Source: Nitrospira sp. (GTDB taxonomy: Bacteria > Nitrospirota > Nitrospiria > Nitrospirales > Nitrospiraceae). From it: a stretch of DNA of 64,000 nucleotides. The notes under the pieces were generated by a model, which searched no databases, was not told the origin of the DNA, and worked only from the letters and a program-made list of their open reading frames with translations. The translations under genes and the position numbers were made by a program. Numbering within the stretch: position 1 is the stretch's first letter; every line of letters begins with the position of its first letter. Positions 40,097 through 57,287 of this stretch are shown piece after piece. The stretch lies in NCBI GenBank assembly GCA_005116955.1, contig SWDI01000002.1, forward strand, positions 609,316 to 673,315. Direction: 5' to 3'.

Positions 40097-40218
40097 CGTT
40101 CTCGGCCAACCCTTTCTGCATAGGAGTCTGTACACTATGCGGTCTCGTAATAAAACCTAACGGTGCTACCTTAGCGATAAATAAATTGTAGCGCAACGAT
40201 TCATAGGGCAAAATAGGA

Positions 40219-40257
40219 ACACCGGCGCTGGAGTATGAGTGGTTCCGGCACCGGTGT
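40219..40257 (-). terminator. Hairpin, probable terminator for the 40286 gene
   Basis: A stem of about 13 bases with one mismatch and one wobble pair (ACACCGG...CCGGTGT outer arms) and a 13-base loop. On the minus strand it is followed by TTCCTATTTT, a moderate T-rich tail. It lies about 30 bases past the stop of the gene at 40286. Confidence 0.55.
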
Positions 40258-40285
40258 CGGTGGATGACTTAATGCCAATAGCTGG

Positions 40286-40888
40286 TTAGTGTCGCTCTCC
40301 CCGCTCCGGTCTTTCAGCACGATCAGGTCTATCCTGATGGTCTGGGCGCTCAGGTCGTTCTGATCGCTCCATTCGTTCCGGTCTGTTTGGTCGTTCCATG
40401 TGCATCATACGAGCATTGTCTCGCCCGTCTCGGCCGTGTTCTCCCGCGACATGGTCGGCTCGGTCAAGACCGCGGAGTTCATCACCGGCATTTGATCGAT
40501 GATCCTCTCGACGATCTTGGCGCCTGTTCATCTGCCGGTCTTCTCTCCTGTCCTCTCTCCGATCGAGTTGTCGATCTTCACGACGATCTTCCCTTCGATC
40601 GATCTGTCGATCTTCTCTGCGGTCTGCGCGTCGATCTTCCTGGCGGACATCATTGGCCTGAGCCACCGCCATAGGGTCTCTCCCATGTCTCCCACTCTGA
40701 TTTTCTACATCTCGACCACTATTCAATGATCCTGGTCCACTGTTGAGTGAGCCAGGCCCCCGATTGTCGACCCGTATCTCCGGCCCTTCCATGGAGCCAC
40801 TCATCTTGCCTATGGCTGGTGAGGTCAACACTGAGAGTCCTGCGAGAGTTCCCACAATGATTTCTTTCCAACTGGTGCGGTTCATCAT
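40286..40888 (-). CDS. Secreted low-complexity Arg/Asp/Glu-rich protein
   Basis: 200 residues; the start at 40888 has AAAAGGAGATGA upstream. Signal peptide about 1-27. The mature protein is composed of charged repeats: DRREDRRADRREDRQIDRRE-like units of seven to eight residues in the middle, then RPERMERSERPERPD in the C-terminal part. No cysteine. The chain should be disordered and highly hydrophilic. The similar tail of the 36355 protein and closeness in the map suggest a shared role, perhaps in holding a charged extracellular layer. This is speculation; there is no known domain. Confidence 0.6.
   Translation of the reverse strand: MMNRTSWKEIIVGTLAGLSVLTSPAIGKMSGSMEGPEIRVDNRGPGSLNSGPGSLNSGRDVENQSGRHGRDPMAVAQANDVRQEDRRADRREDRQIDRREDRREDRQLDRREDRREDRQMNRRQDRREDHRSNAGDELRGLDRADHVAGEHGRDGRDNARMMHMERPNRPERMERSERPERPDHQDRPDRAERPERGERH
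40495..40660. repeat. Short tandem repeats coding for DRREDRQ-type units
   Basis: The DNA here is built of imperfect units around GATCTTC/TCGATC (for example TCGATCTGTCGATCTTC), coding for the Arg/Asp/Glu repeats of the overlapping minus-strand gene. Copy number could vary between strains. Confidence 0.6.
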
Positions 40889-40946
40889 TCATCTCCTTTT
40901 GAAGTTATATGGTCGCAGTCTAACCAGCCTGCTGGCATCCACCTAG

Positions 40947-42398
40947 TTAATCTTCTAATTCTGCCTCTTCCCATACGACCGTCGTACCGCTCAACTCACC
41001 CTTCACTTTCACCAGTGAGTTGACGCTCACCGCAGCCAAGAAGCCCGCACGACTCATGGATGTCCCGCTCACGCTCTCAAACTGATTGATGACGCTTGTA
41101 TCAACCGACACTCCCAGGATCGTTATGACATTTCCGGCAATCGATTGAACCGGTCCTTGGAGATCCACATCATTATCGGATGAGCGAACCTGGATATGGG
41201 TCGCAAGCACAGTATTGGGACCAATGACCCGACCACGCACCCTCACATGATTGCCCTGCAGATCATTCACAGTAATTATGTTTCCACTATCCTTCAACTC
41301 CGTCTGGCTGTTCACGGTAATCGTCACACCAGAAAGCCCCGTCAGTGATAGTGTGCTGCCGGTGATTGTTGCATCTCCTTCAAGCCGTACACTTTCATGG
41401 AACTTCACATGCTTGGCAATGAGCGTACTGCCGTCAAACCGGCCTTCGGCGGACATCTTGGCCCCAACTACGATCTCATCGACGGTTCCGCCACGAAACT
41501 TCGTGCTTGCCACCGTCCTCACTGGAGTAGTTCCAATGGTGAAATCGATGACGCTGCCATTAGGCGTGCCGGCTTGTGTCACGAAGCCTTCGACTTCGAG
41601 TTCATCGATGGCATTCCCGAGGCCCTGGTTCTCTGGTTCGACTTTCGTCGCAATAAGCGTCGTTGTTGCACTGGAAAAGTTTGTCCCTTTGACCTCAACG
41701 AAACGACCGTCCCAGTTGTTCCCATTGGGGACCGGCATGTCACTGATGTCCGCTCCACTGTAGTTCACCGTGAGGGTGCCGATCCGGAATGTTGCAGATC
41801 CAGAAGCATGGTTGTTCACAAATCCCCGCACCTCGGGCGTCACCCCCACTAATTTCTTTTCGATGAATGTCGCCTGAATGATTCCGTTGGGACGAATATG
41901 GCCGTTGACTTCAACATTGTCCGTCCCAGCCACAAGATTCACGATGTTTCGCCCAGGAATGTTGTCGTCGATCAATGTCGTATTGTCGATGAACACTGTT
42001 TGCCCCATCACCACCAGACTCAAACCATCCCCTGCCACCGACTGCACAAGCCCTTCCACCGCATCCTTTTGCTGAACGGAACTGGCCGTATGCTGACTGC
42101 CGTTGAATGAGCCATTAACCGTCACTACCATTCCCTTTTTGAATCCACAGGTCGTCACGGGATTAATGGTGCATCGCTCCGTGACACCATCTCTCCGCAC
42201 TTCCACATTTTCAGCCTCGAACTTCTTTCCATTCACAAACACGCTGCCAAAGTCCGTGACAGTTCCGGATGCTGATGCCGACCCGCTTCCTGATCCGCTC
42301 GCCGATACAGACGGTGCTCCCTCGCTACCACAGGCTGCAAGTATTCCGGCCACTCCGATCACGCCGATTAAACGGACGACACAAAACGAGGTTCTCAT
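40947..42398 (-). CDS. DUF5666 lipoprotein
   Basis: 483 residues with a lipoprotein signal peptide (lipobox LAAC, Cys about residue 23), then a Ser/Gly-rich linker (SASGSGSGSASASG) and serial DUF5666 domains: GTVTDFGSVFVNGKKFEAEN, GLVQSVAGDGLSLVVMGQTV, and later units such as 'GFVTQAG' and 'GDATITGSTLSLTG'. AGGAGT precedes the start. It is homologous in plan to the 8773 protein, though longer. Predicted envelope lipoprotein of unknown role. It is followed on the minus strand by the 40286 gene 58 bases later, so the two may share a transcript. Confidence 0.82.
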   Translation of the reverse strand: MRTSFCVVRLIGVIGVAGILAACGSEGAPSVSASGSGSGSASASGTVTDFGSVFVNGKKFEAENVEVRRDGVTERCTINPVTTCGFKKGMVVTVNGSFNGSQHTASSVQQKDAVEGLVQSVAGDGLSLVVMGQTVFIDNTTLIDDNIPGRNIVNLVAGTDNVEVNGHIRPNGIIQATFIEKKLVGVTPEVRGFVNNHASGSATFRIGTLTVNYSGADISDMPVPNGNNWDGRFVEVKGTNFSSATTTLIATKVEPENQGLGNAIDELEVEGFVTQAGTPNGSVIDFTIGTTPVRTVASTKFRGGTVDEIVVGAKMSAEGRFDGSTLIAKHVKFHESVRLEGDATITGSTLSLTGLSGVTITVNSQTELKDSGNIITVNDLQGNHVRVRGRVIGPNTVLATHIQVRSSDNDVDLQGPVQSIAGNVITILGVSVDTSVINQFESVSGTSMSRAGFLAAVSVNSLVKVKGELSGTTVVWEEAELED

Positions 42399-42427
42399 GT
42401 GATACTCCTGGTTAAAACAAACGGTTG

Positions 42428-42868
42428 TTATGACTTGTGGTTTTTAGAGTCATTAGTCGACACAGGCGCTGGTCGCGGCATATCGGCCAGCACATCCGCC
42501 GACCAGGTGACATGCGCCGGACACCATTGCCAAACGCCGAGGGTGATGATGCGCGTGAGTCCAGCAGGCATGCAGGCAAGTCGGTTGACGGACACCTCCC
42601 GATTGACCACCCTAGTCGAGGCTCCGCATCGATTCAGATATGGCTCACTGGAGACATCGCGAAGATCGATATGAGGGGTGAGAAAGGCCACGATCGGGAC
42701 AGGCAGCACAGCAATCGATGAATCATCCACCCACTCGCTCCCAGAACAATGGCCCTCGACCCCAACCATGCGCTTCACATCGTCGCGGACTAATGTGGAA
42801 GTACAACTCGACAGCAGCAGTGTTACTGAAAGCAGATACGCGATCACTTTTGAACTGAATGGTTGCAT
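42428..42868 (-). CDS. Hypothetical lipoprotein
   Basis: 146 residues. The start has AGGAGGGGGTT upstream. A lipoprotein signal peptide with lipobox LLSSC (Cys about residue 22). The rest contains five further Cys (HCSGSE, NRCGAST, ACMPAG, WCPAHV) and no recognised domain. It starts 29 bases upstream (on the minus strand) of the DUF5666 gene, so the two are probably co-transcribed. Function unknown. Confidence 0.6.
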   Translation of the reverse strand: MQPFSSKVIAYLLSVTLLLSSCTSTLVRDDVKRMVGVEGHCSGSEWVDDSSIAVLPVPIVAFLTPHIDLRDVSSEPYLNRCGASTRVVNREVSVNRLACMPAGLTRIITLGVWQWCPAHVTWSADVLADMPRPAPVSTNDSKNHKS

Positions 42869-42967
42869 AACCCCCTCCTTCCAACCTTGTCTGATGGGTT
42901 AGACGGAGGGGTGAGGGAAAAGTAAACAGGTGACTTGGGAAGGTTTGGTCCTGCGAAGGTAGGGGTG

Positions 42968-43002
42968 CCAGCCCAGCCTGAGCGAAGCTCAGGCTGGGCT
43001 GG
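42968..43002. terminator. Perfect 16-bp hairpin with GAA loop
   Basis: Arms CCAGCCCAGCCTGAGC and its exact complement flank a three-base GAA loop closed by C-G pairs (GCGAAGC type, very stable). It lies nine bases past the stop of the copper/propeller gene (minus strand) and before the lipoprotein gene. No T-run follows on either strand, so it may be an mRNA-stabilising or partial terminator hairpin. Confidence 0.7.
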
Positions 43003-43010
43003 ACGATCTG

Positions 43011-44831
43011 TTACTGGATTGGATTACGCTGAGCAGGAGTCAACAGATCTTTCCAGGTCTGAGGAAGATTCTGGACCCACCCGTTGTACACGACAGGGAT
43101 GGTGAGGAGCCCCTGACCGCCCATGCCGCGATTGCCGGTGATGGTGTCATCCGATGCAGTCCCGACTGTCGAAGTCAGCAAGATTCTGCCGACGATCTCG
43201 GCATCAGCCGGATTGCCGTCGTTGTTTGGGTCCGGATCGACCACGATCAAGCTGTTCGAGAACTTACTCGAGACGTAGGCATAGTACCCACCACCCTGCT
43301 TCGCCCCATACTGCACGCCATGGCAGCCTGGATCGCAAGGCAACATCGCCACGACTGTATCGGTGACTGGATCGACGACCGTAATCGTGGCCGTGAGCGT
43401 GTTGGCTGTGACCATATTCTTCCCGTTCGGACTGACCGGCGTTTGAATCGGTAACGCACCAACTGGGCCTGTAATTACCCCAGTAATGGCATTGTAATTT
43501 TCGAGCAGGTTGATCGTCTTCGTCACGACCTTCGCCTGCGTGTCGATCACTGTAATCGTGCTATTGAGCAGACTCGCCACGTAGGTTTTTTTTGAGTCTG
43601 GGGTCATGCCAGTTGCGATCGGCAAGGCGCCGGCCGGCAAGATGGCATCAATGGAATCATTTGCAAAGTTGTACTGCGTGCTGTCCGATGAAAAGGCGTT
43701 CGGTGTCACCATCTTCTTGCCATCGTGGCTCATCCAATGGGCATGGGGGTTCCCACGTCCGATGTTGATGCGCCGCTGTACACCGTTTGCCATAGGTGCC
43801 AATTCAACCACAGAATCATTGTTCGGCGAGCCATTCAACGTCACATGCAGCTGATCGGTGTCGGTTCTGGTCATCACATGGGCCGGCGATTCTCCCACGG
43901 AGATATTATTCAAGAATTGTCCAGACGTTCGATTGAAGACGGTCAGTTTGCTGTCGAACCATTGCGTCTGATAGATCAGATTCTGGTTCTTATCCGTCCA
44001 CATGTTGTGGGGATTGTTCATGTTGATCTGCGGGAGCGCAACCTTGCGTCTTGCTTGCCAGGTCTGGCCATTAATGGCCGTGGCCGTACCGGGTTTGCTC
44101 TTCCCCGCAGTCTTCTCAAACTGGGTATCGACCCAGATTTCTCCCACCGCTGCCGTCGTGGGATTGTTCAATGCTGCTTTGGCGATGTCGTTTCCATACC
44201 GAGTGCTCAGTACCGCATCGAGATTAGCAACCGCGCCACCTGTGATGCGGACATCGACATTGGGATACGTGATGTGCCAGGGAGCGGAGGAACTATAGTC
44301 CTCCCAGTTCGCGGGATGGGTCGCAATGAAGAAGGTGCGGAGTAGCCTGGTCGCAAGATCGCTGCTGGTTGGAACCGTGATGCCGTTGACCAGCGAGATG
44401 GTTTCGCCGAGATCCAGCCCGGTCGTGGCCGGATTGTCCACGATCACCGCACCGAACATGTACGGATGGATCTTGCAGGTAAACACATAGAGGCCCGGCG
44501 TATGGAGCACAACTTGATCTGATCCCTTACGGGGCGCCGTATCAAACGGCATATTGATCGCCCCGGTCGGGAAGATCAAACTGGTGCGCGTGTGTACCGT
44601 GTTGGATTTCCCGGTGAATACGACTTCGGTTCCCGGCGTTGCCACCGCGAGCGAACCAAAACCTGCAACCGGCCCTGCTGCATTTCTAAACCAGGCGCCA
44701 GGCTCGTCAGTAATTTCAAACGTGACACGTGGACCGTCCGCCTGGACGGTGCTCGCCATAGGACTCAATGCAGCAAATGCGAAAATCCCAGCTACCCACA
44801 CAGACACACCTAAACGGACACGTCTTCTCAT
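43011..44831 (-). CDS. Amicyanin-like blue-copper domain fused to a YVTN-type beta-propeller
   Basis: 606 residues from the ATG at 44831 (AGGAAGTGGGC upstream; 46 extra codons further up are unlikely). Signal peptide about 1-32. Residues about 35-135 form a cupredoxin with a type 1 copper set His80, Cys119, His122, Met125 (TCKIHPYMFGAVIV), the C-x2-H-x2-M spacing of amicyanin. A linker region (about 140-270) is followed by a beta-propeller of YncE/YVTN type (repeats such as KKMVTPNAFSSD, KTYVASLLNSTITVIDTQ, GKNMVTANTLTATITVVDP). A CDPGCH sequence near residue 500 is a CX3CH, not the canonical heme motif. It is a secreted electron-transfer-type protein; substrate unknown. Confidence 0.85.
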   Translation of the reverse strand: MRRRVRLGVSVWVAGIFAFAALSPMASTVQADGPRVTFEITDEPGAWFRNAAGPVAGFGSLAVATPGTEVVFTGKSNTVHTRTSLIFPTGAINMPFDTAPRKGSDQVVLHTPGLYVFTCKIHPYMFGAVIVDNPATTGLDLGETISLVNGITVPTSSDLATRLLRTFFIATHPANWEDYSSSAPWHITYPNVDVRITGGAVANLDAVLSTRYGNDIAKAALNNPTTAAVGEIWVDTQFEKTAGKSKPGTATAINGQTWQARRKVALPQINMNNPHNMWTDKNQNLIYQTQWFDSKLTVFNRTSGQFLNNISVGESPAHVMTRTDTDQLHVTLNGSPNNDSVVELAPMANGVQRRINIGRGNPHAHWMSHDGKKMVTPNAFSSDSTQYNFANDSIDAILPAGALPIATGMTPDSKKTYVASLLNSTITVIDTQAKVVTKTINLLENYNAITGVITGPVGALPIQTPVSPNGKNMVTANTLTATITVVDPVTDTVVAMLPCDPGCHGVQYGAKQGGGYYAYVSSKFSNSLIVVDPDPNNDGNPADAEIVGRILLTSTVGTASDDTITGNRGMGGQGLLTIPVVYNGWVQNLPQTWKDLLTPAQRNPIQ

Positions 44832-45026
44832 GCCCACTTCCTGTGATGATGTGAAATGTAAAAGAACTGCTTGCCGAACTTTGCAGCGTCGGAGGTCATG
44901 GCCTCCGTCTTGACCAGGACCGGTGCGGTGCAAGTTGGCCACTGCGGTTAGACGAATCGGCAAGTACAATGTAAACGAGTAACAGAAAAGTTCAAGGAAT
45001 AATTTTAAGATTGAGTTTATGGAACC

Positions 45027-45731
45027 TTATCGAACATCTTGAAAAAATACCCGAGGGAGAACCGGCAAACGGTATTCGACGTGGAGGATGATGAGGAGCA
45101 CACGGATAAAGCTTCTCCAGACGCCCATGGTGAGAAACTTTCGGGCATCGGTAATCACGGGTGGGAATAGGAGCACGGGGTTTGTGCGTTTGATAAGTTT
45201 CTCACAGAACGCGACATCTTCCAGAATGGGCTGGTTCGGGAATCCGCCAAGTCGTTCGAATAATGTTCGACGGACGAAGAGGGCTTGATCGCCGTAGATA
45301 ATGCGGCTGCGAGTGCAGCGGAAATTGTCCAGGAACGAAATGAGACGCAGTCGCCAGTCGTCACCGGAGAACTGGTGCATGAAGCCACCGGCCTGAATCG
45401 TGGAATCGTTCTCCATTTCATTCAGTCGTTGGAGCGCCCCAGCCGGTAGAACGGTATCGGCATGGAGGAAGAGCAGCCATTCGCCTTGTGCCTGCTTGGC
45501 GCCGGCATTCATCTGGGAGGCGCGACCCTTCGGTGCAGTGAGAAGACGAACAGCGCCGAGGACTGAGGACTGAGGACTGATCGCTAACCCTGAGACAAAC
45601 GCGCATGTCCGATCGGTGCTGCCACCGTCCACCACGATCGCCTCGAATGTGCCTGGCTGCGCGAACAGCGCTTGCAGCGTGCCTGGTAACACCTTCTCTT
45701 CGTTGTAGGTAGGCATGATGACGCTGATCAT
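45027..45731 (-). CDS. TIGR04283-type family 2 glycosyltransferase
   Basis: 234 residues from the ATG at 45731 (start overlaps the upstream stop: ATGA). GT-A fold: ISVIMPTYNEE at the start, VVDGGSTDRT, then 'GRASQMNAGA', HADTVLP (DXD-type metal site) and GGFMHQFSG. These fit the TIGR04283 family, whose members are known from arsenosugar-type and other small biosynthetic clusters. A ~10-residue insertion (AISPQSSVLG) after the DGGSTDRT strand is encoded by a heptanucleotide repeat (45558-45580). It is the last gene of the radical-SAM/DUF547/ferritin-like operon. No membrane anchor apart from a possible C-terminal hydrophobic helix (FIRVLLIILHV). Confidence 0.85.
   Translation of the reverse strand: MISVIMPTYNEEKVLPGTLQALFAQPGTFEAIVVDGGSTDRTCAFVSGLAISPQSSVLGAVRLLTAPKGRASQMNAGAKQAQGEWLLFLHADTVLPAGALQRLNEMENDSTIQAGGFMHQFSGDDWRLRLISFLDNFRCTRSRIIYGDQALFVRRTLFERLGGFPNQPILEDVAFCEKLIKRTNPVLLFPPVITDARKFLTMGVWRSFIRVLLIILHVEYRLPVLPRVFFQDVR
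45558..45580. repeat. Heptanucleotide tandem repeat (GAGGACT x3.3) inside the glycosyltransferase gene
   Basis: Three full copies of GAGGACT plus two bases. The unit is not a multiple of three, so gain or loss of one copy would shift the frame of the overlapping gene. Confidence 0.85.
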
Positions 45732-46363
45732 GCCGAACACCAGTCCGGCAAGAATGTCCGTACATCCTGTGCCCAAGCCGTGGCATCTTCGTCGATGCTC
45801 TCAAATAAGTCACAGAGCGTGAAGACCATGGCATCGGTCAGCGCAAGGTACCGCTGCGCCCGTTGTCTGAGATCCGGCACATCGGTCTCACCACGCTCGA
45901 TCGCTTGTTCGATCTGGCGACGCCCAAACACATGATGGGCTTCTTCCTGGTGAAACAAAATCCGGCGGAGCCGCCCGAACGGTGCCGCCCGCTTCACCAA
46001 CCCCTGTTCGATACGCGTGAGGACGGCTTCACCCAAGCCTTCGAGGACCACTTGCTCGGCCAGGAAGGTCTCCGTGAGATCGCGGCGTGCCAGCGCATCG
46101 TCCAGAATCCTTCGATATTCTTCCAGGGCAGGAAGGAACGGCGTGTCACAGAGGTATTTCGGCGCAAGCCAGGCAATGGCTCCCTGAAAGACCCGCGCAT
46201 GCATCGCTTCTTGTTTGGCCTGACTCAGCAGAAATCGCCGTGTCCCGGAATCGTCGGACAAAGCGGCTTGAGCCTTGGCACACTCATGGGCCATCCGTTC
46301 GCCGTGCTCTAAGAACGTCAACAGCCTGGCGATGGGCTCTTTCTCATCAGGACCGACCAGCAT
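45728..46363 (-). CDS. Ferritin-like di-iron domain protein
   Basis: 211 residues, all-helical. Helices carry spaced Glu and Glu-x-x-His pairs of the ferritin-like fold: EHGERMAHE at 20-27, SQAKQEAMHARVF (E-x-x-H), AEQVVLEGLGE, and HQEEAHHVFGRRQIE (E-x-x-H). These give a candidate di-iron site. No signal peptide. The gene overlaps the DUF547 gene upstream by 17 bases and the glycosyltransferase downstream by four, so they are translationally coupled. Role could be oxygenase-like modification or oxidative protection of the pathway; function not decidable from sequence. Confidence 0.8.
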   Translation of the reverse strand: MLVGPDEKEPIARLLTFLEHGERMAHECAKAQAALSDDSGTRRFLLSQAKQEAMHARVFQGAIAWLAPKYLCDTPFLPALEEYRRILDDALARRDLTETFLAEQVVLEGLGEAVLTRIEQGLVKRAAPFGRLRRILFHQEEAHHVFGRRQIEQAIERGETDVPDLRQRAQRYLALTDAMVFTLCDLFESIDEDATAWAQDVRTFLPDWCSA

Positions 46364-47141
46364 CGCTTATCTCCTTTGGTGGTGTCCCGTTTAAGCTCCA
46401 GTCGTAGTCGAGATACTCGATACGATAGTCCGATTGCATCAGGTCCTGGACCAGTTCGGGATCGCTCACGTAGCGGGCGATGTAGGACAAAACAGATCCG
46501 GCGGATGTCGTAAAGTCTTTCTCAAACCATTTGAAGATCATCGAGAGCGACGCAACTTTGTTCTTGCGGTCGAAACGATTGCGCGTGGGATCATTGATGA
46601 AGTCTCTGGCCACGCGATCCAATTGGATATTGAGTCGATCCGGCTCATAGGTCCAGGGCTGAAGCTTGGGACAGGAGGCGGAGGCGCACACAATAGCAAA
46701 ATGGATCAATGGTTCCTGAAACTGCTTGATCAACACGTGCCGCTCCAGATCATAGAGATTGATGGCGGCTCCTCCGACCCGATAGTCCCGTCCAATGAAG
46801 TAGCGATAGCGTCCGACATAGCTCGTCGGTGAATAATGATCCAGGATGCCTTTGACGGCAAAAGCGTTATAGGCATTGATCCAAAAAGCCAGCCGTTCAT
46901 TGCGTGTAGCCAACGCGTTTGGATCTACTCGGTCGACCTGTGCAAGATAGGCTGGCAATCGATCGTCTAGCTGAATCGCCGGATAATCGACGACGCCCTG
47001 ACTCACATGTGTCTCCAACACGCGACTCAACAGTCTGTGAGAGAATTCACCGGCGGGAATAGGTTCGGCAGGTGTGAATGTTGTTGGAACGGTTGAACAA
47101 CCTCCAGCCAGGAAGACCAAACTCAGCAGGATCCACCTCAT
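46347..47141 (-). CDS. DUF547 lipoprotein
   Basis: 264 residues from the ATG at 47141 (GAGGG five bases upstream; a further ATG at 47165 is less likely). A lipoprotein signal peptide with lipobox LAGGC. The mature part has the DUF547 core: LAFWINAYNAFAVKGIL, then 'INLYDLER', HFAIVCASASCPKL (two Cys), FINDPTRN and SMIFKWFEKDF. DUF547 resembles a papain-like or transglutaminase fold by the family's description, though I cannot confirm catalytic residues here. Located in the envelope. It sits between radical SAM and ferritin-like genes with overlaps, part of the same operon. Confidence 0.85.
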   Translation of the reverse strand: MRWILLSLVFLAGGCSTVPTTFTPAEPIPAGEFSHRLLSRVLETHVSQGVVDYPAIQLDDRLPAYLAQVDRVDPNALATRNERLAFWINAYNAFAVKGILDHYSPTSYVGRYRYFIGRDYRVGGAAINLYDLERHVLIKQFQEPLIHFAIVCASASCPKLQPWTYEPDRLNIQLDRVARDFINDPTRNRFDRKNKVASLSMIFKWFEKDFTTSAGSVLSYIARYVSDPELVQDLMQSDYRIEYLDYDWSLNGTPPKEISDAGRS

Positions 47142-47158
47142 CACAACCCTCTTTTGAC

Positions 47159-48217
47159 TTACCATGTCACTGGTGTTTGCCAGGCTGCCATGGGATGTCG
47201 CAGAACCGACCCAATGACCCGCCCATCCAGTCTGTTACAGGACGACCGATCGGAACAATGCTGAATCTCTCGTCGATCGAACCCCTCAAGTATCTCACTG
47301 AGCGATGAATGGAGGAGATTCCCGGCTTCGGGAAGCGACAAACAGGGTGAGACGTTCCCGGAGGCATCGATCGCAATACTATACCGTCCTGCATCGCAAG
47401 GCTTCAGGGTTTCTCCACCTAGCCATGTCACATTGTCCTTCGCATATTGCCGAAGATAGCCAGGAGGCAGTGCCTCCTCCTCAAGCAATCGTTGGAAGAC
47501 TAGCCTGGCCTGTTGACGGTCATACATCAACGTCCCATCCTGCTTGCCATATAGTCCTACATCCCAATGGTATGCACCGACGACTGGCAAGAAACCTTGT
47601 TGCCTGGCAAACGCAACTACCTCGGTCACCTCATCCCGATTGATCTCGCTCACGATACAGGTGAGGAATTTTGGACGGCGATAGCGCTGGAGAAGATCCA
47701 GACCGGCAAGAACCGCGGGAAGTTGATCGGCACCCCGGATACGTTCGTACGTGTTGCGATTCAGGGTGTCGAGGCTGATCGAGAGGGACACCGAGAGATT
47801 GTCGAATTGCTGCACGAGGCGCGAGGTCAGCTTCGTTCCGTTCGTAATCAGCGTGAGGCGAAATCCTATCTCAACTAAATCTTGAAGAATGTCAGGCAAG
47901 TCGCGTCGCAAGAGCGGCTCACCGCCCTGCACGAACACAAAGCGTAGACCGTCTTTGTAGAGGCCGGCAAAGACGGTCCGGATCTCCTCTCGTGACATCT
48001 CATACCGACCTTCATTCAACGGAAGGTTGCAGTAGCCACAGGAAGAATTGCATCGAAGGTTCACTTGAAACACGGCCAACAGCGGACGTCTCAGCACCAG
48101 ATTGGCCAGTCCACCCCATAGTGCTTGAGGAAGGCTGGGTTTCCCATTCCTCTCCGTAGAATGCCTATCGACTTGTGGATTTGCCTGAGGCTGTGATCGT
48201 TCGATGTGTATCAGCAT
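47159..48217 (-). CDS. Radical SAM protein with SPASM-like C-terminus
   Basis: 352 residues from the ATG at 48217 (in-frame 48256 is possible). The CxxxCxxC cluster motif is RCNSSCGYC with Cys56, Cys60, Cys63. A GGEPLLR motif follows (SAM binding), then NGTKL and a SISLD-type strand. The C-terminus has a SPASM/twitch-like Cys arrangement: CDAGRYSIAIDASGNVSPC, then HCSDRSSCNR, for auxiliary iron-sulfur clusters. It is the first gene of the overlapping operon with DUF547, ferritin-like and glycosyltransferase genes. SPASM-type enzymes modify peptides or small molecules by radical chemistry. The product is unknown; there is no precursor peptide gene visible. Confidence 0.88.
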   Translation of the reverse strand: MLIHIERSQPQANPQVDRHSTERNGKPSLPQALWGGLANLVLRRPLLAVFQVNLRCNSSCGYCNLPLNEGRYEMSREEIRTVFAGLYKDGLRFVFVQGGEPLLRRDLPDILQDLVEIGFRLTLITNGTKLTSRLVQQFDNLSVSLSISLDTLNRNTYERIRGADQLPAVLAGLDLLQRYRRPKFLTCIVSEINRDEVTEVVAFARQQGFLPVVGAYHWDVGLYGKQDGTLMYDRQQARLVFQRLLEEEALPPGYLRQYAKDNVTWLGGETLKPCDAGRYSIAIDASGNVSPCLSLPEAGNLLHSSLSEILEGFDRREIQHCSDRSSCNRLDGRVIGSVLRHPMAAWQTPVTW

Positions 48218-48421
48218 GACTGGTCCGTCTGGTGGTCGCTGTGCAGTTCTGCCCAATGACGTGCCACTTTTTCCCCTGGGCTTCTCATCATTTTATGTGC
48301 TCAATCAGCCCTGTTTAGTAACCTATTGAGAGTCTTGTGGGTATTGCGAGTCTCGAGCGGCATACCCTTTGCTGAGCGAACAATGGTTCAGCATCCACGG
48401 CTTTCTACCAGGAGGTATAAG

Positions 48422-48817
48422 ATGAACATCGCTCGCAGAAACATCCTTCCGGTTATCCTTGGAGGTATCGCGATTCTCTTCGTGGTAACACCTCTTACTG
48501 CAACCGCACGCTCACAAGATGGGAAGAGTCATGCTTCTGCACCGGCCGCTGCAAGGGGCGATGGCTCGGTATCGGAACCCGTCTCATTGTCTTCTTCAGC
48601 GGTCCAACCTGACCGTAAGTCTGGTCCAGCCTGGAAGACCATCGGCGGAACAGTCACGCACATCAAAGTCGATGTCTACACGGTCGAAGACTACGAAGGA
48701 AATCAGGTTCAGCTTTACATCAGCCGGGAAACCAAGCAACTGCGCGGCAGTAAGAAGGTTGGGGACCGCGTACGCGCTGAAATCACCCACGGTCGTTTCG
48801 CCAACTCTATTCAATGA
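48422..48817 (+). CDS. Small secreted protein of unknown function
   Basis: 131 residues from the ATG at 48422, with AGGAGG at 48410. A signal peptide (about 1-32, ending ATARS) precedes an Ala/Ser-rich linker and a C-terminal beta-rich domain (about 75-131: GGTVTHIKVDVYTVEDYEG, 'QVQLYISRETKQL', GDRVRAEITHG), of OB-like appearance and faintly similar to DUF5666 units. It is followed by a clear terminator, so it is a monocistronic gene. Role unknown. Confidence 0.7.
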   Translation: MNIARRNILPVILGGIAILFVVTPLTATARSQDGKSHASAPAAARGDGSVSEPVSLSSSAVQPDRKSGPAWKTIGGTVTHIKVDVYTVEDYEGNQVQLYISRETKQLRGSKKVGDRVRAEITHGRFANSIQ

Positions 48818-48826
48818 TCGACTCCT

Positions 48827-48858
48827 GAGCAGCCCGCCTCGATTGAAGCGGGCTGCTC
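48827..48858 (+). terminator. Hairpin terminator of the 48422 gene
   Basis: An 11-base perfect stem (GAGCAGCCCGC and its complement) with a ten-base loop starts nine bases after the stop codon. The tail (TGTCTCC) is only weakly T-rich. Confidence 0.7.
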
Positions 48859-49101
48859 TGTCTCCGAACATTTGTCGGATACCCGTTCAATTTCTTACAG
48901 TCTGGGACGCAATGACCATAAATTATCATAATAGAGGCTGAAGCGCCGGCGTTGACACGATACTCTGATTCTCAGCTTCACCATCGTACGTACCACTATG
49001 CGTTGTTCATTGTCCATGCAAGTCAGGCTGCGATGTCATCCCATTCACTCTCTTCAAGCAAGGTGTGGCCTCTACACTGACGTCTGAGGTCAGACCTCAT
49101 C

Positions 49102-49812
49102 TCATCCCAGCGCAGCCTCGACCGCCACTTTCACGCGTTCTCGAGCACGATGTAACCGTACATAGAAGTTCGTTTCAGAAATCTTCAGTTGCCGACACAC
49201 TTCTTTGGTATGTACGCCCTGCACATCGCGCAGAATCAGGACTTCCTTCTGATGTGTGGGCAGGGTCTCGATCGCGTGCCTCATGCAGACTGTAGCCTCT
49301 CTTGATGCCAACAGTTTCTCAGGCGTTCGATCGTCCCAAAGATGCTGTGAGAATTCCGCAGACCCTGGCCACTCTTTGCACGGACGAAACCGGGATAGGT
49401 TGATGTCGCCACTCCAGTTATCGGTTTCCAATTTAAAGTCTGAGAAGACTTTCTGCCGTTTCTCTCGAACACCTCGATCCTTCGCCTTGTGGATGAGAAT
49501 CGCACAGATCCACGCATAGAGGGACGACCGGCCTTCAAACCGATTCAGCCCGCTCATCACCGCCATCCAGGTCTCCTGCACAACATCCTCTGCCGTTGCT
49601 CGAATGACTACATATCGCATAGCCATTCGGATGAGTGTTTCCTGGTAGTGGGTGACGACGGCCGCAAATGCTTCTTCCTCCCCTGCCCGCAGTTGTGACA
49701 GAAGCTGTACCTCATCGTTCATCAAACGGGAGACGTTGTTCATAGGCGATGTCCTGCTCGTCGGTACTGCAAAAGGAATCGAGCCTGTATCCCTGGTCAC
49801 GTGTGTACTCAT
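49102..49812 (-). CDS. ECF sigma factor
   Basis: 236 residues from the ATG at 49812, which has GGAGGAAGAGT right upstream. Region 2 is seen in AEEEAFAAVVTHYQETLIRM-type sequence and DVVQETWMAVMSGLNRF; region 4 in LPTHQKEVLILRDVQGVHT and the HTH ISETNFYVRLHRARERVK. A long linker (about 125-165) with Trp residues separates the regions. No anti-sigma gene lies next to it: the neighbours are a divergent small secreted protein and a sensor kinase. So it may be regulated by transcription or by a distant partner. Confidence 0.9.
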   Translation of the reverse strand: MSTHVTRDTGSIPFAVPTSRTSPMNNVSRLMNDEVQLLSQLRAGEEEAFAAVVTHYQETLIRMAMRYVVIRATAEDVVQETWMAVMSGLNRFEGRSSLYAWICAILIHKAKDRGVREKRQKVFSDFKLETDNWSGDINLSRFRPCKEWPGSAEFSQHLWDDRTPEKLLASREATVCMRHAIETLPTHQKEVLILRDVQGVHTKEVCRQLKISETNFYVRLHRARERVKVAVEAALG

Positions 49813-50103
49813 ACTCTTCCTCCGGTCTACGGTCGCCTTCGACGCCAGTGTTCCAATACGGATGTTCCGAACCAATCGAGATTTTCAGCATTCATCTGTG
49901 AAGGCTGATGATGGACTCATCGGCATATTCCCAAAGAATGATCAAAAAACCTTCACGAAATCATGACGTCTTCGTCACAGACTGATCGTTTTTTGGATAC
50001 ATGGCCCTGCGATTACGCCATGGCTAAGCAGAAGGCGAGGCTTGTCCGTGTCAGATGAGTGAACAGGACCAGGACGGGAAGATGTGATATGTGACCGGAA
50101 ACT

Positions 50104-51648
50104 CTACCTGTGGGATGAGTATTCTGTTGTTACTCTAGCTGCCGGCAGGACGCTCGGCTGGGCAACTGCGAGGTGAAAGGAAAAGGTCGTCCCTTGATTG
50201 ACGGCACTCTGCACCTCAATAGCGCTTCCGTGCAGCTCTAGAATTCGCTTCGTGATTGCGAGCCCAAGCCCGGCCCCTTTGTCATGACTTTGATATTTCT
50301 TCCCGACTTGATAGTACCGGTCAAAAACATGCGGCAGGTCTTCCGGTGGAATGCCGCAGCCGGTATCCGTGACCCGTGTCATGATGTTCTCGCCCATGCG
50401 GTTCAGGATCACCGTGATCCGCCCCCCTTGCGGCGTGTATCTGAGAGCATTCTCAATCAGGTTTTCGAGCACCCGTTCGATCAGTCCGATATCAGCCGAG
50501 ACAAACGGGAGATCCTCACCCAGCTTGGCCTGAAGTATCATCTGTTTGGCTTCAACAACCAACCGAAACTTTTGAACGACGTCCTGCACCAGTTCACTTA
50601 GTGAAAACGACTCGATACGAGGCTTCATTTCCTGTGAATTCAACTTGGCGAGTTCAAATAGTTCTGCAATCAGCTCTCCGAGCCGTTTGCTCTGTGCCGT
50701 GGCGATTTCCAGATACCGCTGTCGCTCTTGAGCCGAGAGCACGCCTTCCTTCAGCACCAAGGTTTCAAGATATCCCTGGAGACTGGTGACAGGCGTGCGC
50801 AGATCATGCGAGACATTAGCGATCAATTCCCTCCGCAACTGATCGGTCTCTTCCAACTGGTGCACTTGTTGACGAATAAGCTCAGCCATGTGTGCAAAGG
50901 TCGTCTCTAGCTGATCAATCTCATCCCCTCGCCCGGCTGCAGATGGTTGAGCATCAGAATGAGACGAGACGTCCACTTGTGCGGAGAGTTCGCCGTGCCT
51001 GAAGGTGTCCATCGCCAAGGCCAGGGAGTTGAGTCTTCGCGTCAAGAGTTTCAGACAGAGCAGCCCGGCCAGAAGAGTCAGTACCAGGATGGCCCCGACG
51101 GTCCATATACTCAACCGAAGAATGTAACTCTCTTTAAGCATCTGCATGACCGAATCGAACTCTTCTCCGCCCAGGATGATATACAGATAGCCCTCGATGG
51201 AACCGCCTAGGGTTTCAATCGGAAAAACTGAAAACACCTTCTGACGCGTGAGATCACGTGGGTCATCCCCAAGAATAGGGAAGTCCTCGGCACCAGACAG
51301 GAAACGCCGGAGTGGCTCAAGGGAGATGTGCTGTCGTTTGACTTTCTCAGGAGGAGCGGAAAAGGTCAGAATTGTACCCTGAGGATCAAGCAGATACAGT
51401 TCAATACTGGGATTAATCACCATGAGCTCATGAAAGATTTCCTTCAGCACCTCGTCATTGGCTTGCCCCTCCTTCATCAGGACCTTGTCGGACACTATCC
51501 GCTCGGCTAAGGTCCGGTTCAGCTTCTGGCTGACTTCTTGGAAGTATAATTGGGTGGCATAGAATGTGAGTACAATAGCCACGGCGCCGATTACACAAAA
51601 GAGCCCGAAGAGAAGGGCCGCTACCTTTCCATACAGCGTGTTGAACAT
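50104..51648 (-). CDS. Sensor histidine kinase with HAMP
   Basis: 514 residues. TM1 about 8-30, a periplasmic region about 31-177, TM2 about 178-200, HAMP about 201-262, HisKA with H-box SHDLRTP (His281), HATPase with N-box (NLIENALRYTP), G1 (DTGCGIP) and G2 (GAGLGLAITKR). Its gene starts three bases after the stop of the response-regulator gene (51652-52368), so regulator and kinase are co-transcribed, regulator first. No PAS domain; the signal is sensed in the periplasmic domain. The ligand is unknown. Confidence 0.92.
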   Translation of the reverse strand: MFNTLYGKVAALLFGLFCVIGAVAIVLTFYATQLYFQEVSQKLNRTLAERIVSDKVLMKEGQANDEVLKEIFHELMVINPSIELYLLDPQGTILTFSAPPEKVKRQHISLEPLRRFLSGAEDFPILGDDPRDLTRQKVFSVFPIETLGGSIEGYLYIILGGEEFDSVMQMLKESYILRLSIWTVGAILVLTLLAGLLCLKLLTRRLNSLALAMDTFRHGELSAQVDVSSHSDAQPSAAGRGDEIDQLETTFAHMAELIRQQVHQLEETDQLRRELIANVSHDLRTPVTSLQGYLETLVLKEGVLSAQERQRYLEIATAQSKRLGELIAELFELAKLNSQEMKPRIESFSLSELVQDVVQKFRLVVEAKQMILQAKLGEDLPFVSADIGLIERVLENLIENALRYTPQGGRITVILNRMGENIMTRVTDTGCGIPPEDLPHVFDRYYQVGKKYQSHDKGAGLGLAITKRILELHGSAIEVQSAVNQGTTFSFHLAVAQPSVLPAARVTTEYSSHR

Positions 51649-51651
51649 GCC

Positions 51652-52368
51652 CTACCGCTCCGGCCATTCTTCAGAAAAGCTATAGCCAACTCCCCACACC
51701 GTTAAAATATACCGAGGCCGACTGCTATCATCTTCGATTTTAGCCCGCACCCGATTGATGTGGGAATTTACGGTATGCTCATATCCTTCATGTGAGTACC
51801 CCCACACGGCATCTAAGAGTGTGGCACGGGTATAGACCTGGCCAGGGTGTTGGGCAAAGTGGAGCAAGAGGTCAAATTCTTTGGCCGTCAACTCGATCGA
51901 TCGACCACGCAGCTGGACCTTTCGTTTATCGACCTCGATCACGAGGTCGCCTGCGCGAATGGTCAGGGGCTTGGGGAGAGGAGCCTGTGCGCGAAGCGCG
52001 TCCATACGCCGAAACAAGGCTTTCACTCGTGCGAGGAGTTCCAAAATGCTGAATGGCTTGGTGAGGTAGTCGTCTGCGCCTACTTCCAGGCCCAACACCC
52101 GATCCAGTTCCGTCGACTTGGCTGTGAGCATCAGGACCAGACTATACTTCGATGAGGCGCGCAGTTTCCGGCACACTTCCAAACCATTCATTCCAGGAAG
52201 CATCAGATCGAGAATGATCAAGTCATAGGAGTTGGCAAGGGCCTGCTGAAGTCCTGCTGGACCATCCTGTGCCAGATCAACTTCATATCCAGTATCGCGC
52301 AGATGCAGCTGCACCAGCTGGGCGATATCAGGATCATCTTCAACTACAAGAATCGTACGAGACGCCAT
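51652..52368 (-). CDS. OmpR/PhoB-family response regulator
   Basis: 238 residues from the ATG at 52368 (GGAGAAAAC upstream). Receiver domain with acidic residues in VVEDDPD, phospho-acceptor Asp54 in ILDLMLPGM, and KPF (LTKPFSILELLARVK). The winged-helix output domain has LTAKEFDLLLHFA and the recognition region HTVNSHINRVRAKIE. It is the partner of the kinase encoded immediately downstream. The gene upstream encodes a secreted beta-propeller protein on the same strand, a possible target. Confidence 0.93.
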   Translation of the reverse strand: MASRTILVVEDDPDIAQLVQLHLRDTGYEVDLAQDGPAGLQQALANSYDLIILDLMLPGMNGLEVCRKLRASSKYSLVLMLTAKSTELDRVLGLEVGADDYLTKPFSILELLARVKALFRRMDALRAQAPLPKPLTIRAGDLVIEVDKRKVQLRGRSIELTAKEFDLLLHFAQHPGQVYTRATLLDAVWGYSHEGYEHTVNSHINRVRAKIEDDSSRPRYILTVWGVGYSFSEEWPER

Positions 52369-52534
52369 GTTTTCTCCAGCTTGTCCACCGCCAAGCAATT
52401 GACCATGACCTGACCAGCGCCAGTGCGAGTGATCCAGTACTCGCACCGACTCGACCGTCCTCAGATACTCAGAAGCCTCGCCGACGCGAGACTTCTGAGT
52501 GGTCCTGAGACTAGGGACCTGACCTCGGCGGCGG

Positions 52535-53904: not shown

Positions 53905-54648
53905 TTAATGCGTTTTCATAAACACAATATCGCCGTAGTAGGCGGTGGCTCGTTCCTTCGTGTTGTCTGTATCGCTCATAATGGCGACACCATTAATCAT
54001 CGGCGGTTCTTCCCCAAAAGCCTTCTTGTAATCTTCATAGATGTTCTGTTCTTCATCGACCCAGAGACCGATATTGCTCGGACCACTTTCCACGACGACC
54101 ATTTTGACAAAATCCGTATAGGCATTGTCGATGATGGCCCCAACCGGAGCCTTTGTTTCCCACACGTAGCTGATGGCTCCGATCGGAATATCCCCAAACA
54201 GTGCCTGGCCCGCCTTATACTTGATCTTCTTTCCAAAACTCACCTTATCAGGGTCGTATTCAAACGTGATATAGAGTCGGGCCGGATAGTCATCCCCGTC
54301 TTTTCTGGTGGCATTGCTTTTCTGAAGCAGATTCTCGACCTTCCACCGCCATCGCACGATTGGAAATTCTTTCGGATTGATTCGGACCTCTTTAGTCAAG
54401 CCTGATGCCGATGAATCGCTCATGGCTTTGACGACGACTTGGGCCCCGTCTTTCACCAGTTCATACGTCGTCAGTTTGGGGATCTTCTTGAAGGTCAGCG
54501 GTTTCCACCCGTCCGGCAGACTCGCTCCCGGTTCGCTTATGGAAAATTGCGCAACCTCCACCGTGGTTGGACTTTGCGCCTGCACTGATACCGCCGGCAA
54601 CGCCGCGCAGATCATGAGGACAAGATTGATGATGGGATTCCTCCTCAT
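53905..54648 (-). CDS. DUF3047 family secreted protein
   Basis: 247 residues with a signal peptide (ending VQAQ). The mature part has the DUF3047 features: WKPLTFKKIPKLTTYELV, RWRWKVENLLQ, DDYPARLYITFEY, SYVWETKAPVGAIIDN, ending with YYGDIVFMK. It is probably a beta-sandwich-type protein in the periplasm. It is the last gene of a three-gene minus-strand group after the TVP38-family and FAD-oxidoreductase genes (16-base gap). Function unknown. The 266 bases between it and the next gene (53638) hold no gene I can support. Confidence 0.82.
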   Translation of the reverse strand: MRRNPIINLVLMICAALPAVSVQAQSPTTVEVAQFSISEPGASLPDGWKPLTFKKIPKLTTYELVKDGAQVVVKAMSDSSASGLTKEVRINPKEFPIVRWRWKVENLLQKSNATRKDGDDYPARLYITFEYDPDKVSFGKKIKYKAGQALFGDIPIGAISYVWETKAPVGAIIDNAYTDFVKMVVVESGPSNIGLWVDEEQNIYEDYKKAFGEEPPMINGVAIMSDTDNTKERATAYYGDIVFMKTH

Positions 54649-54664: not shown

Positions 54665-56251
54665 TCATCTCCTCATCCAAGCAAACAGCTTCACCAGGAT
54701 ATTTTTCGTGCCTTGTGAAAAATGTGCTTTCCGCCAGAGATTCACAACCTTCTTATTCACTTCTGATTGGGTCGGATAGGGATGGATGGTTCCGGCGATC
54801 GTTTTGGCTCCTCCGCCCGCTTTCATCGCAACGGAGAATTCACTGATCATCTCGCCGGCATGGGCAGCCACGATCGTCGCACCCAGGATCTTGTCCGTCC
54901 CCTTTTGAATATGAACTCGCGCAAACCCCTCTTCTTCTCCATCCAGAATTGCTCGATCAACCTCATCCAATTTATATGTATAGGTTTCCACTTCGAAGCC
55001 TTTTTGCTTCGCCTCTTTTTCGTACATCCCGACATGGGCGACTTCCGGCTCGGTAAAGGTGCACCACGGCATCACCAATGCCTCGACATTGGCATAGCCC
55101 AAACTCAACGGATGTGGGAACAGCGCGTTCTGGATGACAATTTGAGCCATCGCATCAGCGGCATGTGTGAACTTATAGCGAGAGCAGACGTCGCCCGCCG
55201 AGTAGATATTGGGATTCGATGTCTGTAATCTGGCATTGACCTTGATTCCGCTCTTGTCATAGTGAACTCCCGCAACCTCCAATCCGACTTTCTCCACATT
55301 CGGTGTCCGTCCGACTCCGACAAGAATTTCATCGACTGTCACGTCATGCCGCCGGTCATGTGACTCGACGGTCAGCTGTTTGCCGTTATCTGTCTTGTGT
55401 ACCGTCAGCTCCTTCCCGCAACAAAGCAGCGTCACACCGTCGCGCAACATCTGGCGTTCGACGATATCGGCTGCGTCGCGATCCTCGTTCGGCATGATGC
55501 CGTGCCCAGCTTCGATCAGATAGACCTGGCTTCCGAATCGGGCAAAGGACTGCGCCAACTCGCATCCGATCGGCCCTGCCCCGATGACGCCGATACGCGG
55601 CGGCAGTTCGGTCAAAGAGAACACAGTTTCATTGGTGAGATACCCGGCCTCCTTCAAGCCAGGCGTCGGGAGCGTTGCGGCACGGGCTCCTGTGCAAATA
55701 GCTGCTTTTGCAAAGGTCAGGGTTCGATGTCCTGCCGGACCTTCGACCTGGATCGTGTCAGAACCGGTAAATCGACCGCTGCCGATGTACACATCCACAC
55801 CCAATTTCGTGTAGCGATGGACCGAATCGTTGTGACTGATTCGGGCACGCAGCTTGCGCATCCGATCCATGACCGTACCGAAGTCATACGTCACCCCGGC
55901 GGGAATATGGATGCCGTATTCCGTGGCCTTCCGTAGATCGGCCCAGGCCCTCGCTGCTCGGATCACGCCTTTCGACGGGACGCATCCGACATTGAGGCAG
56001 TCCCCACCCATCAGATGTTTTTCGATCAACGCGACTTTTGCTCCGAGACTCGCCGCCACGACCGCCGTGATCAATCCGGCAGTTCCCGCTCCAACCACCA
56101 CGATGTTGTAGCGGCCGGTTGGCTCGGGATTGACCCAGTCAGAAGGATGCACATTGGCAATAAGTTGCTGATTATGCTCGTCGTTCGGAAGGATCAGAGA
56201 CTGATCGTGCTCATTCATTCCAGCGATCCTTAGTAGAGGTTCGGCCATCAT
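54665..56251 (-). CDS. FAD-dependent pyridine nucleotide-disulfide oxidoreductase
   Basis: 528 residues from the ATG at 56251; further in-frame starts lie at 56248 and upstream at 56281. The FAD-binding GAGTAG (about residues 54-59) is followed by the redox-active pair CLNVGC (Cys85, Cys90) in GGDCLNVGCVPSKG. A second Rossmann motif (GAGPIGCELAQ) binds NAD(P)H, and HPYPTQSEVNK near the end carries the conserved His-Glu pair of the dimer interface. The layout equals mercuric or lipoamide-type reductases. It lacks the N-terminal heavy-metal domain and the C-terminal Cys pair of MerA, so mercury reduction is unlikely. Its partner genes are a TVP38 membrane protein and DUF3047. Confidence 0.9.
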   Translation of the reverse strand: MMAEPLLRIAGMNEHDQSLILPNDEHNQQLIANVHPSDWVNPEPTGRYNIVVVGAGTAGLITAVVAASLGAKVALIEKHLMGGDCLNVGCVPSKGVIRAARAWADLRKATEYGIHIPAGVTYDFGTVMDRMRKLRARISHNDSVHRYTKLGVDVYIGSGRFTGSDTIQVEGPAGHRTLTFAKAAICTGARAATLPTPGLKEAGYLTNETVFSLTELPPRIGVIGAGPIGCELAQSFARFGSQVYLIEAGHGIMPNEDRDAADIVERQMLRDGVTLLCCGKELTVHKTDNGKQLTVESHDRRHDVTVDEILVGVGRTPNVEKVGLEVAGVHYDKSGIKVNARLQTSNPNIYSAGDVCSRYKFTHAADAMAQIVIQNALFPHPLSLGYANVEALVMPWCTFTEPEVAHVGMYEKEAKQKGFEVETYTYKLDEVDRAILDGEEEGFARVHIQKGTDKILGATIVAAHAGEMISEFSVAMKAGGGAKTIAGTIHPYPTQSEVNKKVVNLWRKAHFSQGTKNILVKLFAWMRR

Positions 56252-56296
56252 AGTGAGACACCCTTCGTTGTGGATTGTCACTCGAGGGATGGTTCA

Positions 56297-57034
56297 TCAC
56301 GCTCGTTTGGCCGTCACTCTCTTATAGATGACAGGCACCAACGCCAGGAGTCCCAGCAGTACAAAGGCACCAATCACATTCGGTGACGCAATTTCCTGTA
56401 ATGAATTGATCGTCCCAAGTTGGCGTCCCGCATAGGCATAGACGAACGAACCGGGGATGATGCCGAGTGCCGTCGCGGCGACATAGGTCCCCACGTTCAC
56501 GCGCGTGAGTCCGGACACAAGGTTCACCACGAAGAAGGGAAAGAGTGGGATGAGTCGCAAGGTCAACAGGTAGCTGAACGCATTCTTGGCAAATCCCTCT
56601 TGGAATGGCCCGAGCCACTTGCCAAACTTCTGTTCAACCGTATCCCGTAATAGATGCCGAGCGGTCAGAAATGCCAGCGTTGCACCTGTAGTCGCCCCGA
56701 TATTAATAAACAGCGCCGCCATGGTGGCACCGAATAAGAACCCACCGGCCAAAGTCAAGATGACTGCGCCCGGCAGCGACAACCCGGCCACGATCACATA
56801 CGCAGCGATGAAGATCCCCACCGCTGAGACAAAGTTGGCATCAGTGAATGCCAGCAAACTGTCTCGATTTTCTTTCAACGCGGTCAACGACAAGAACTGT
56901 CCGAAATCGAAATAGAAAAACGCACCGATGGCCAGCGCGATCGCCAGCGCAATAACGATCTTGCCAGTGCTAGGCTTCTTAGATTCAGCGTGAGATGAAT
57001 TCTGGGTGGTCATAATGGCATCCTGGCGTATCAT
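56297..57034 (-). CDS. TVP38/TMEM64 (DedA-like) membrane protein
   Basis: 245 residues from the ATG at 57034 (AAGGGGAG upstream); a start at 57013 is also possible. About six hydrophobic helices in residues 30-240. The family core is seen in LPGAVILTLAGGFLFG, then ATLAFLTARHLLRD, and YLLTLRLIPLFPFFVVNLVSG, 'GIIPGSFVYAYAG'. These match TVP38/TMEM64 (SNARE-associated, DedA-related) proteins, implicated in lipid scrambling and membrane homeostasis. It is the first gene of the three-gene group with the FAD oxidoreductase 45 bases downstream, a pairing seen in many bacteria. Confidence 0.9.
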   Translation of the reverse strand: MIRQDAIMTTQNSSHAESKKPSTGKIVIALAIALAIGAFFYFDFGQFLSLTALKENRDSLLAFTDANFVSAVGIFIAAYVIVAGLSLPGAVILTLAGGFLFGATMAALFINIGATTGATLAFLTARHLLRDTVEQKFGKWLGPFQEGFAKNAFSYLLTLRLIPLFPFFVVNLVSGLTRVNVGTYVAATALGIIPGSFVYAYAGRQLGTINSLQEIASPNVIGAFVLLGLLALVPVIYKRVTAKRA

Positions 57035-57287
57035 GGTGGCTCCCCTTGATTCTGTCAACGAGATAACTGGTCGGCTTGATCGTATGTCGGAGAAGCGTCC
57101 AGAATCTTACAGGATGCCGACCGCAGTGGAAATCTTAGAACACTGGCCAGATGGTGACTATCGATTCTCCCAGGAAATCACAACAGAGGTTATCGGCAAA
57201 GGCTTGAGGTATTCATCCCCTCCGCGCAGCCAGAAAGATGTTGTCACGCCTGCCTCTCGTCTCGTACTCTATCGTTAGGAGGCCGTC

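Follow-up and report, generated by a model that had tools for sequence, protein, structure and literature searches.

A co-inherited four-gene cassette of Nitrospira encoding a radical SAM/SPASM enzyme, a DUF547 lipoprotein, a putative diiron protein of ADO fold and a TIGR04283-type glycosyltransferase

Organization of the locus

The window analysed here is a stretch of 64,000 nucleotides (64 kb) from Nitrospira sp. (GenBank assembly GCA_005116955.1, contig SWDI01000002.1, positions 609,316 to 673,315), whose open reading frames (ORFs) include four genes lying on the minus strand in the order RSAM, DUF547, FER and GT. These genes had been named in a preliminary description made from the DNA letters, and their coordinates and domain matches agree with it:

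47159..48217, minus strand: RSAM, radical SAM/SPASM enzyme of 352 amino acids (domain matches, structural model)
46347..47141, minus strand: DUF547 lipoprotein of 264 amino acids (PF04784; start conserved in relatives)
45728..46363, minus strand: FER, ferritin-like protein of 211 amino acids (invariant residues, fold of the model)
45027..45731, minus strand: GT, glycosyltransferase family 2 (TIGR04283 model; separate clade)

The overlaps of 17 bases between DUF547 and FER and of 4 bases (ATGA) between FER and GT are as described before, while the gap from the RSAM stop to the DUF547 ATG, formerly given as 18 bases, counts 17; an alternative ATG of DUF547 at 47165 is likewise open. All four genes are under purifying selection, with dN/dS of 0.09-0.21 in 12/12 comparisons (4 genes by 3 relatives), and the closest FER from another genome, a Nitrospira metagenome-assembled genome, is 91% identical. 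Upstream of RSAM, no promoter motif was common to all 10 aligned sequences.

Recurrence, co-inheritance and loss

In the labels used below, L stands for a fetched locus, G for a genome, f1 for the family of this genome and f2 for a second family of the same order. FER matches at an E-value of 0.001 were found in 48 of 295 Nitrospirota genomes, from which the weak ones of G034 (2e-7) and G220 (8e-4) were excluded, leaving 46, one of them (G018) with a split FER copy. The recurrence in other genomes, on which the preliminary description had made its pathway depend, is thus observed in these 46/295 genomes for FER and in 20 contigs for the set: RSAM, DUF547 and FER are present in 20/20 genome contigs found via FER and GT in 19/20, the only contig without it (L017) ending within FER. 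Among the 46 FER genomes, the cassette GT (E 1e-80 or better) occurs in 45, being absent from G151; the cassette DUF547 (>400 bits) in 44, being absent from G151 and G123; and RSAM (E 1e-60 or better) in 37, whereas none of the other 249 Nitrospirota genomes has any of the three above these thresholds. Because of these counts the cassette is not a product of chance; the Fisher p values of co-occurrence over the 295 genomes range from 7e-39 to 1e-52, in tests that here and below ignore kinship. Since GT accompanies FER in 45/46 genomes but RSAM in 37/46, FER and GT form the core and RSAM is optional.

FER is found in 41/79 genomes of f1 (20/40 in the genus) and in 5/18 of f2. For eight of the 38 f1 genomes that lack the set, the region around FADmer, a gene of the neighbourhood for a MerA-like FAD oxidoreductase, was retrieved, and two of these eight retain remnants of the set. 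In L156, the 3' part of GT is matched over 114 bases (window 45037-45150) with alignable flanks; in L158, 224 bases from the interior of RSAM (window 47619-47842) adjoin a counterpart of the divergent gene 48326-48817. Therefore, cells can do without the set, which has disappeared on more than one occasion. It is an accessory cassette whose genes are, for the most part, retained or lost together. The recurrence, this tendency to stay or go as a unit and the invariant lipobox cysteine of DUF547 lend good support to the earlier proposal of a small biosynthetic pathway that includes an envelope lipoprotein. The plasmid collections searched with FER gave no match, the plasmid records matching GT (54) were all less than 60% identical to it, and no relative of FER or RSAM was found in the viral contigs.

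Proteins of the cassette

FER exceeded the cut-off of no Pfam or NCBIfam model. The residues E22, E52xxH55, E108 and E140xxH143 are invariant in an alignment of 36 FER sequences, in the E/ExxH/E/ExxH pattern of diiron carboxylate enzymes; the six residues may correspond to the diiron positions of the cyanobacterial aldehyde-deformylating oxygenase (ADO). The FER model (pLDDT 85.7) gave ADO as the first-ranked Foldseek match, at an E-value of 1.1e-3, with nothing at or below 0.001, and its superposition on ADO chain 5ux2_B (VIA-align) has a Z of 24.2 and a root-mean-square deviation of 2.3 over 202/211 residues at 14% identity, the next folds being the R2-like ligand-binding oxidases (Z 21.0). 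The sequence of FER does not place it nearer to ADO than to ribonucleotide reductase R2, which provides its best solved chain (E 0.0042); PF00268 matches 5/36 FER members (best 6.6e-4), and the ADO family models of Pfam or NCBIfam match 0/36 at 0.01. FER is best regarded as representing an unnamed family of ADO-fold, probably diiron proteins, which resembles ADO in fold, length and the putative ligand pattern and differs from it in the low identity (14-18%), the lack of a family match and the gene context. A second FER type, 57-58% identical and without adjoining GT, DUF547 or RSAM, was observed in L065 (G081:C8:218414-219040) and in L066 (G151), where the contig ends at the gene.

RSAM matches the radical SAM domain PF04055 (79.4 bits) and the SPASM domain PF13186 (27.8 bits, cut-off 21.5), and stays below the cut-off of every NCBIfam model shown. 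Its CX3CX2C motif (C56/C60/C63) and the additional C274, C292, C321 and C327 do not vary among 18 sequences. The structural model, of moderate confidence (pLDDT 76.0), has residues 1-25 unstructured; by Z, its closest solved folds are SkfB (23.7), SuiB (22.6), viperin (21.3), BlsE (21.1) and MoaA (20.7). By sequence, the solved chain that RSAM matches best is that of the tetraether lipid synthase 7tol (E 5e-14). With the SPASM enzymes SkfB, SuiB, BlsE, MoaA and PqqE, RSAM shares the core fold, the CX3CX2C motif and a SPASM-like C-terminus, but it differs from them in falling below the NCBIfam cut-offs and in having four invariant auxiliary cysteines, more of which are present in typical SPASM domains.

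The DUF547 protein matches PF04784 with 94.9 bits (cut-off 27) and has an invariant lipobox Cys15 and the motif HFAIVCASxSCPxL; nothing useful was matched among the solved structures, and the open-licence literature on DUF547 concerns, by title, mostly plant transcriptomics. Of 23 distant DUF547 places listed, 15 were chosen by hand and fetched; outside the cassette, FADmer and/or TVP38 genes lie nearby in 9/15 of these loci and ArsS in 3/15. In L141, a DUF547 gene adjoins ArsS, with a TIGR04283-TIGR04282 pair about 11 kb beyond.

GT and the arsenosugar genes

GT reaches 213.5 bits against TIGR04283 (cut-off 182), while a stronger match in the same genome (263.5 bits, C5:39139-39813) is immediately followed by a TIGR04282 gene (209.4 bits). 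The 52 cassette GTs in a tree of 84 sequences all fall into one clade (support 0.718) with no canonical TIGR04283 member. Since the canonical pair lies elsewhere and GT has a clade of its own, the window GT is a second, diverged member and not the canonical arsenosugar-type enzyme of the cell. The earlier statement that no ArsM- or ArsS-like partner is present is true of the window, where neither was found by tblastn with own-genome queries at 1e-6 and TIGR04282 had no match either; it does not extend to the genome, in which ArsS (443.5 bits) adjoins an arsenite-methyltransferase-like (ArsM) gene (232.7 bits, cut-off 263) on contig C1 and the TIGR04283-TIGR04282 pair is on C5.

According to PMC12159101, a radical SAM enzyme is used in oxo-arsenosugar biosynthesis to adenosylate arsenic. 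The cassette and the arsenosugar genes (ArsM, ArsS, TIGR04283, TIGR04282) are alike in combining a radical SAM enzyme with a TIGR04283-type glycosyltransferase, and homologues of DUF547, TVP38 and FADmer occur near ArsS in other Nitrospirota, as does TVP38/FAD in Burkholderia glumae; they are unlike in that the cassette window lacks ArsM, ArsS and TIGR04282 and carries a SPASM-type radical SAM enzyme, a diiron-type protein and a GT of a separate clade. ArsS is present in 46/46 FER genomes and also in 35/38 set-lacking f1 genomes, and as a discriminating partner of the set it was rejected, being near-universal in the f1 family. By the listed places, ArsS is close to the set in only one of the 46 genomes (G280), the ArsS place of G232 being unlisted. 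The arsenosugar link of the cassette is suggestive. Many ArsS genes outside Nitrospirales (G032, G112, G182 and others) contain a single in-frame TGA that is read through, as it would be in selenoprotein forms.

Genomic neighbourhood

Beside the set and further upstream, the window contains the following genes:

48326..48817, plus strand: divergent small gene with a listed TTG start, presumed exported; it matches no family
53905..54648, minus strand: DUF3047 protein of the upstream trio (homologue in L064)
54665..56281, minus strand: FADmer, MerA-like FAD oxidoreductase of 538 amino acids (L064 homologue, NF004991, 768.9 bits)
56297..57058, minus strand: TVP38/VTT-domain membrane protein (homologue in L064)

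The TVP38-FADmer-DUF3047 trio is on the same strand as the set, 5-9 kb upstream. Among the 33 FER loci of at least 9 kb, DUF3047 is within reach in at least 22, FADmer in at least 14, TVP38 in at least 12 and the divergent gene in at least 19, these counts being lower bounds because several loci end early. An ORF at 57288-57932, divergent beside TVP38 and molybdopterin-oxidoreductase-like by eye, stays beside TVP38 in the set-lacking L156 and L157. Downstream of GT, the beta-propeller protein at window 43011-44969 has, in this genome, a 38% identical paralogue (L056:13891-15975) on contig C1, close to ArsM-ArsS.

Eight loci were selected for having at least two of the set, ArsS, BufB and FADmer on one contig, and they attest that such arrangements exist, not how frequent they are. 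In L164, the stretch from FADmer-DUF3047 to the set includes ArsM-ArsS, about 3.4 kb upstream of the latter, and in L165 a BufB-type MNIO (365.6 bits) stands between two FADmer-DUF3047 copies beside the set. In f2, genes for a BufA2 bufferin, an MNIO and an HvfC-like protein are located beside the set (L057) or interleaved with it (L058), with BufA2 scores of 69.4 and 69.0 bits (cut-off 60), a BufB score of 340.7 bits in L058 and HvfC-like scores below the cut-off; in L059, MNIO and HvfC-like genes precede the set. A Burkholderia glumae plasmid (L110, NC_012718.1) carries ArsS, TIGR04283, TIGR04282, a methylthioadenosine (MTA) phosphorylase, a TVP38/FAD fusion and bufferin-type DUF692-DUF2282 within about 16 kb.

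Bufferins are copper-chelating peptides according to the MNIO survey PMC12452194, in whose text Nitrospir-, ferritin, glycosyltransferase, TVP38 and arsen- are not mentioned. BufB is found in 4/5 set-bearing and 0/13 set-lacking genomes of f2 (Fisher p 0.0016) and in 10/41 set-bearing and 6/38 set-lacking genomes of f1 (p 0.41), and as an obligate partner of the set it was rejected for f1. The clusters of these copper-binding, ribosomally synthesized and post-translationally modified peptides occupy the same neighbourhood as the set in L057-L059 and L165; however, no bufferin gene was found in the window, which the L058 bufferin query did not match by tblastn, no BufB is present in this genome, and no association with the set exists in f1. 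In this genome, a link to bufferins is not upheld. Its sole MNIO homologue (L109, G000:C1:396631-397299) is divergent, with 50.2 bits, a 503-amino-acid ORF and no BufB-type match.

Regarding a precursor peptide, none of the 35 intergenic ORFs of 20-90 amino acids at 40000-53500 was conserved in all relatives searched. The best conserved of them (48204-48329, beside the RSAM start) matches 10 relatives and was rejected as a precursor because its conservation is as expected of alignable DNA.

Interpretation and alternatives

The reading that we prefer, with a probability of roughly 0.42, is that the accessory cassette produces a small molecule, glycosylated and tailored by oxidation, for metal(loid) handling at the cell envelope. 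We infer the catalytic steps, their order, the substrate and the metal(loid) role as follows. RSAM would form a 5'-deoxyadenosyl radical and functionalize a small substrate, the nucleotide- or sugar-type nature of which is a guess; FER, acting as an O2-using diiron oxidase of ADO fold, would next oxidize or cleave the RSAM product; GT would attach the resulting molecule to a sugar; and the product would act at the envelope, the site of the DUF547 lipoprotein, with the TVP38/FADmer/DUF3047 trio possibly serving the same neighbourhood. In its favour stand the co-inheritance counts, the fold of the FER model with its six invariant residues, the GT score above the TIGR04283 cut-off together with the clade of its own, the genes met repeatedly around the set (including ArsM-ArsS in L164 and the BufB-type MNIO in L165), the DUF547 homologues near FADmer, TVP38 or ArsS, and the remnants in L156 and L158. 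Several observations weigh against this scheme. FADmer occurs in 36/38 set-lacking f1 genomes, so that the trio, almost universal in the family, is independent of the set, and the two may share the neighbourhood without sharing a function; in the window they are parted by an apparently unrelated block of an extracytoplasmic function (ECF) sigma factor, a two-component system and a beta-propeller protein. The fold matches of RSAM include peptide maturases (SkfB, SuiB) as much as nucleotide-type enzymes (viperin, BlsE), and FER had no match outside Nitrospirota in the plasmid and viral collections, the sole ones searched.

A side branch of arsenosugar or arsenolipid synthesis, in which the cassette would tailor an ArsM-ArsS product made from another locus, is consistent with the GT score above the TIGR04283 cut-off, with the ArsM-ArsS genes in the same stretch as the set in L164, with the DUF547-ArsS adjacency of L141 and with the presence of ArsS in all FER genomes. 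However, we consider it somewhat unlikely, as ArsS is also usual in the set-lacking f1 genomes and near the set in a single one of the 46, and the canonical TIGR04283-TIGR04282 pair is already encoded elsewhere, the cassette GT forming a separate clade. The maturation, by RSAM, FER and GT, of a ribosomal peptide metallophore (a bufferin or a similar peptide) appears improbable: the bufferin-type genes beside or within the set in L057 and L058, the MNIO and HvfC-like genes of L059, the BufB association in f2 and the place of SkfB and SuiB among the best RSAM folds argue for it, but this genome has only the divergent MNIO homologue and no BufB, the association is absent from f1, none of the short intergenic ORFs is shared by all relatives searched, and the unstructured residues 1-25 in the RSAM model leave little space there for a peptide-recognition domain. 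The peptide conjugate, proposed earlier beside a modified sugar, is thus unsupported in this genome, lacking both such an ORF and BufB, and of the earlier interpretation it is the pathway with its lipoprotein that stands.

The modification of lipids or hydrocarbons, with a fatty aldehyde as the target of an ADO-like FER and a lipid as that of RSAM, has little probability in our estimation. The ADO fold of FER, the tetraether lipid synthase as the best solved sequence match of RSAM and the membrane nature of the TVP38/VTT proteins point to it, while the FER sequence is no closer to ADO than to R2 and matches no ADO family, an R2-like oxidase fold is close to it, and the RSAM match to 7tol spans about 200 core residues, as do many others. 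As to a chance neighbourhood of unrelated housekeeping genes, overlaps are frequent in compact genomes and those observed here are of 17 and 4 bases only, but the joint inheritance and loss, together with the absence of the subfamily members outside the FER genomes, make it hardly credible.

Beyond the preferred reading of a small molecule for metal(loid) handling, the cassette might exemplify a novel type of glycoconjugate pathway linked to metal(loids), in which RSAM and a new family of ADO-fold diiron oxygenases would build the aglycone and a TIGR04283-type transferase would glycosylate it, so that Nitrospirales would have, along with arsenosugars and bufferins, a third choice at one genomic location; this extension is, in our view, rather unlikely.

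Significance

No description of the cassette was found in the open-licence papers searched, and as far as these searches reach it is undescribed. The finding adds a diiron-type family without a Pfam or NCBIfam entry, whose partners are fixed by co-inheritance, and the comparison of Nitrospira strains with and without the set makes a search for the product possible. In Nitrospirales, a single neighbourhood can house the arsenosugar genes, the bufferin genes and the MerA-like/TVP38 trio, and this offers a concrete metal(loid) hypothesis for the DUF547, DUF3047 and TVP38 proteins.

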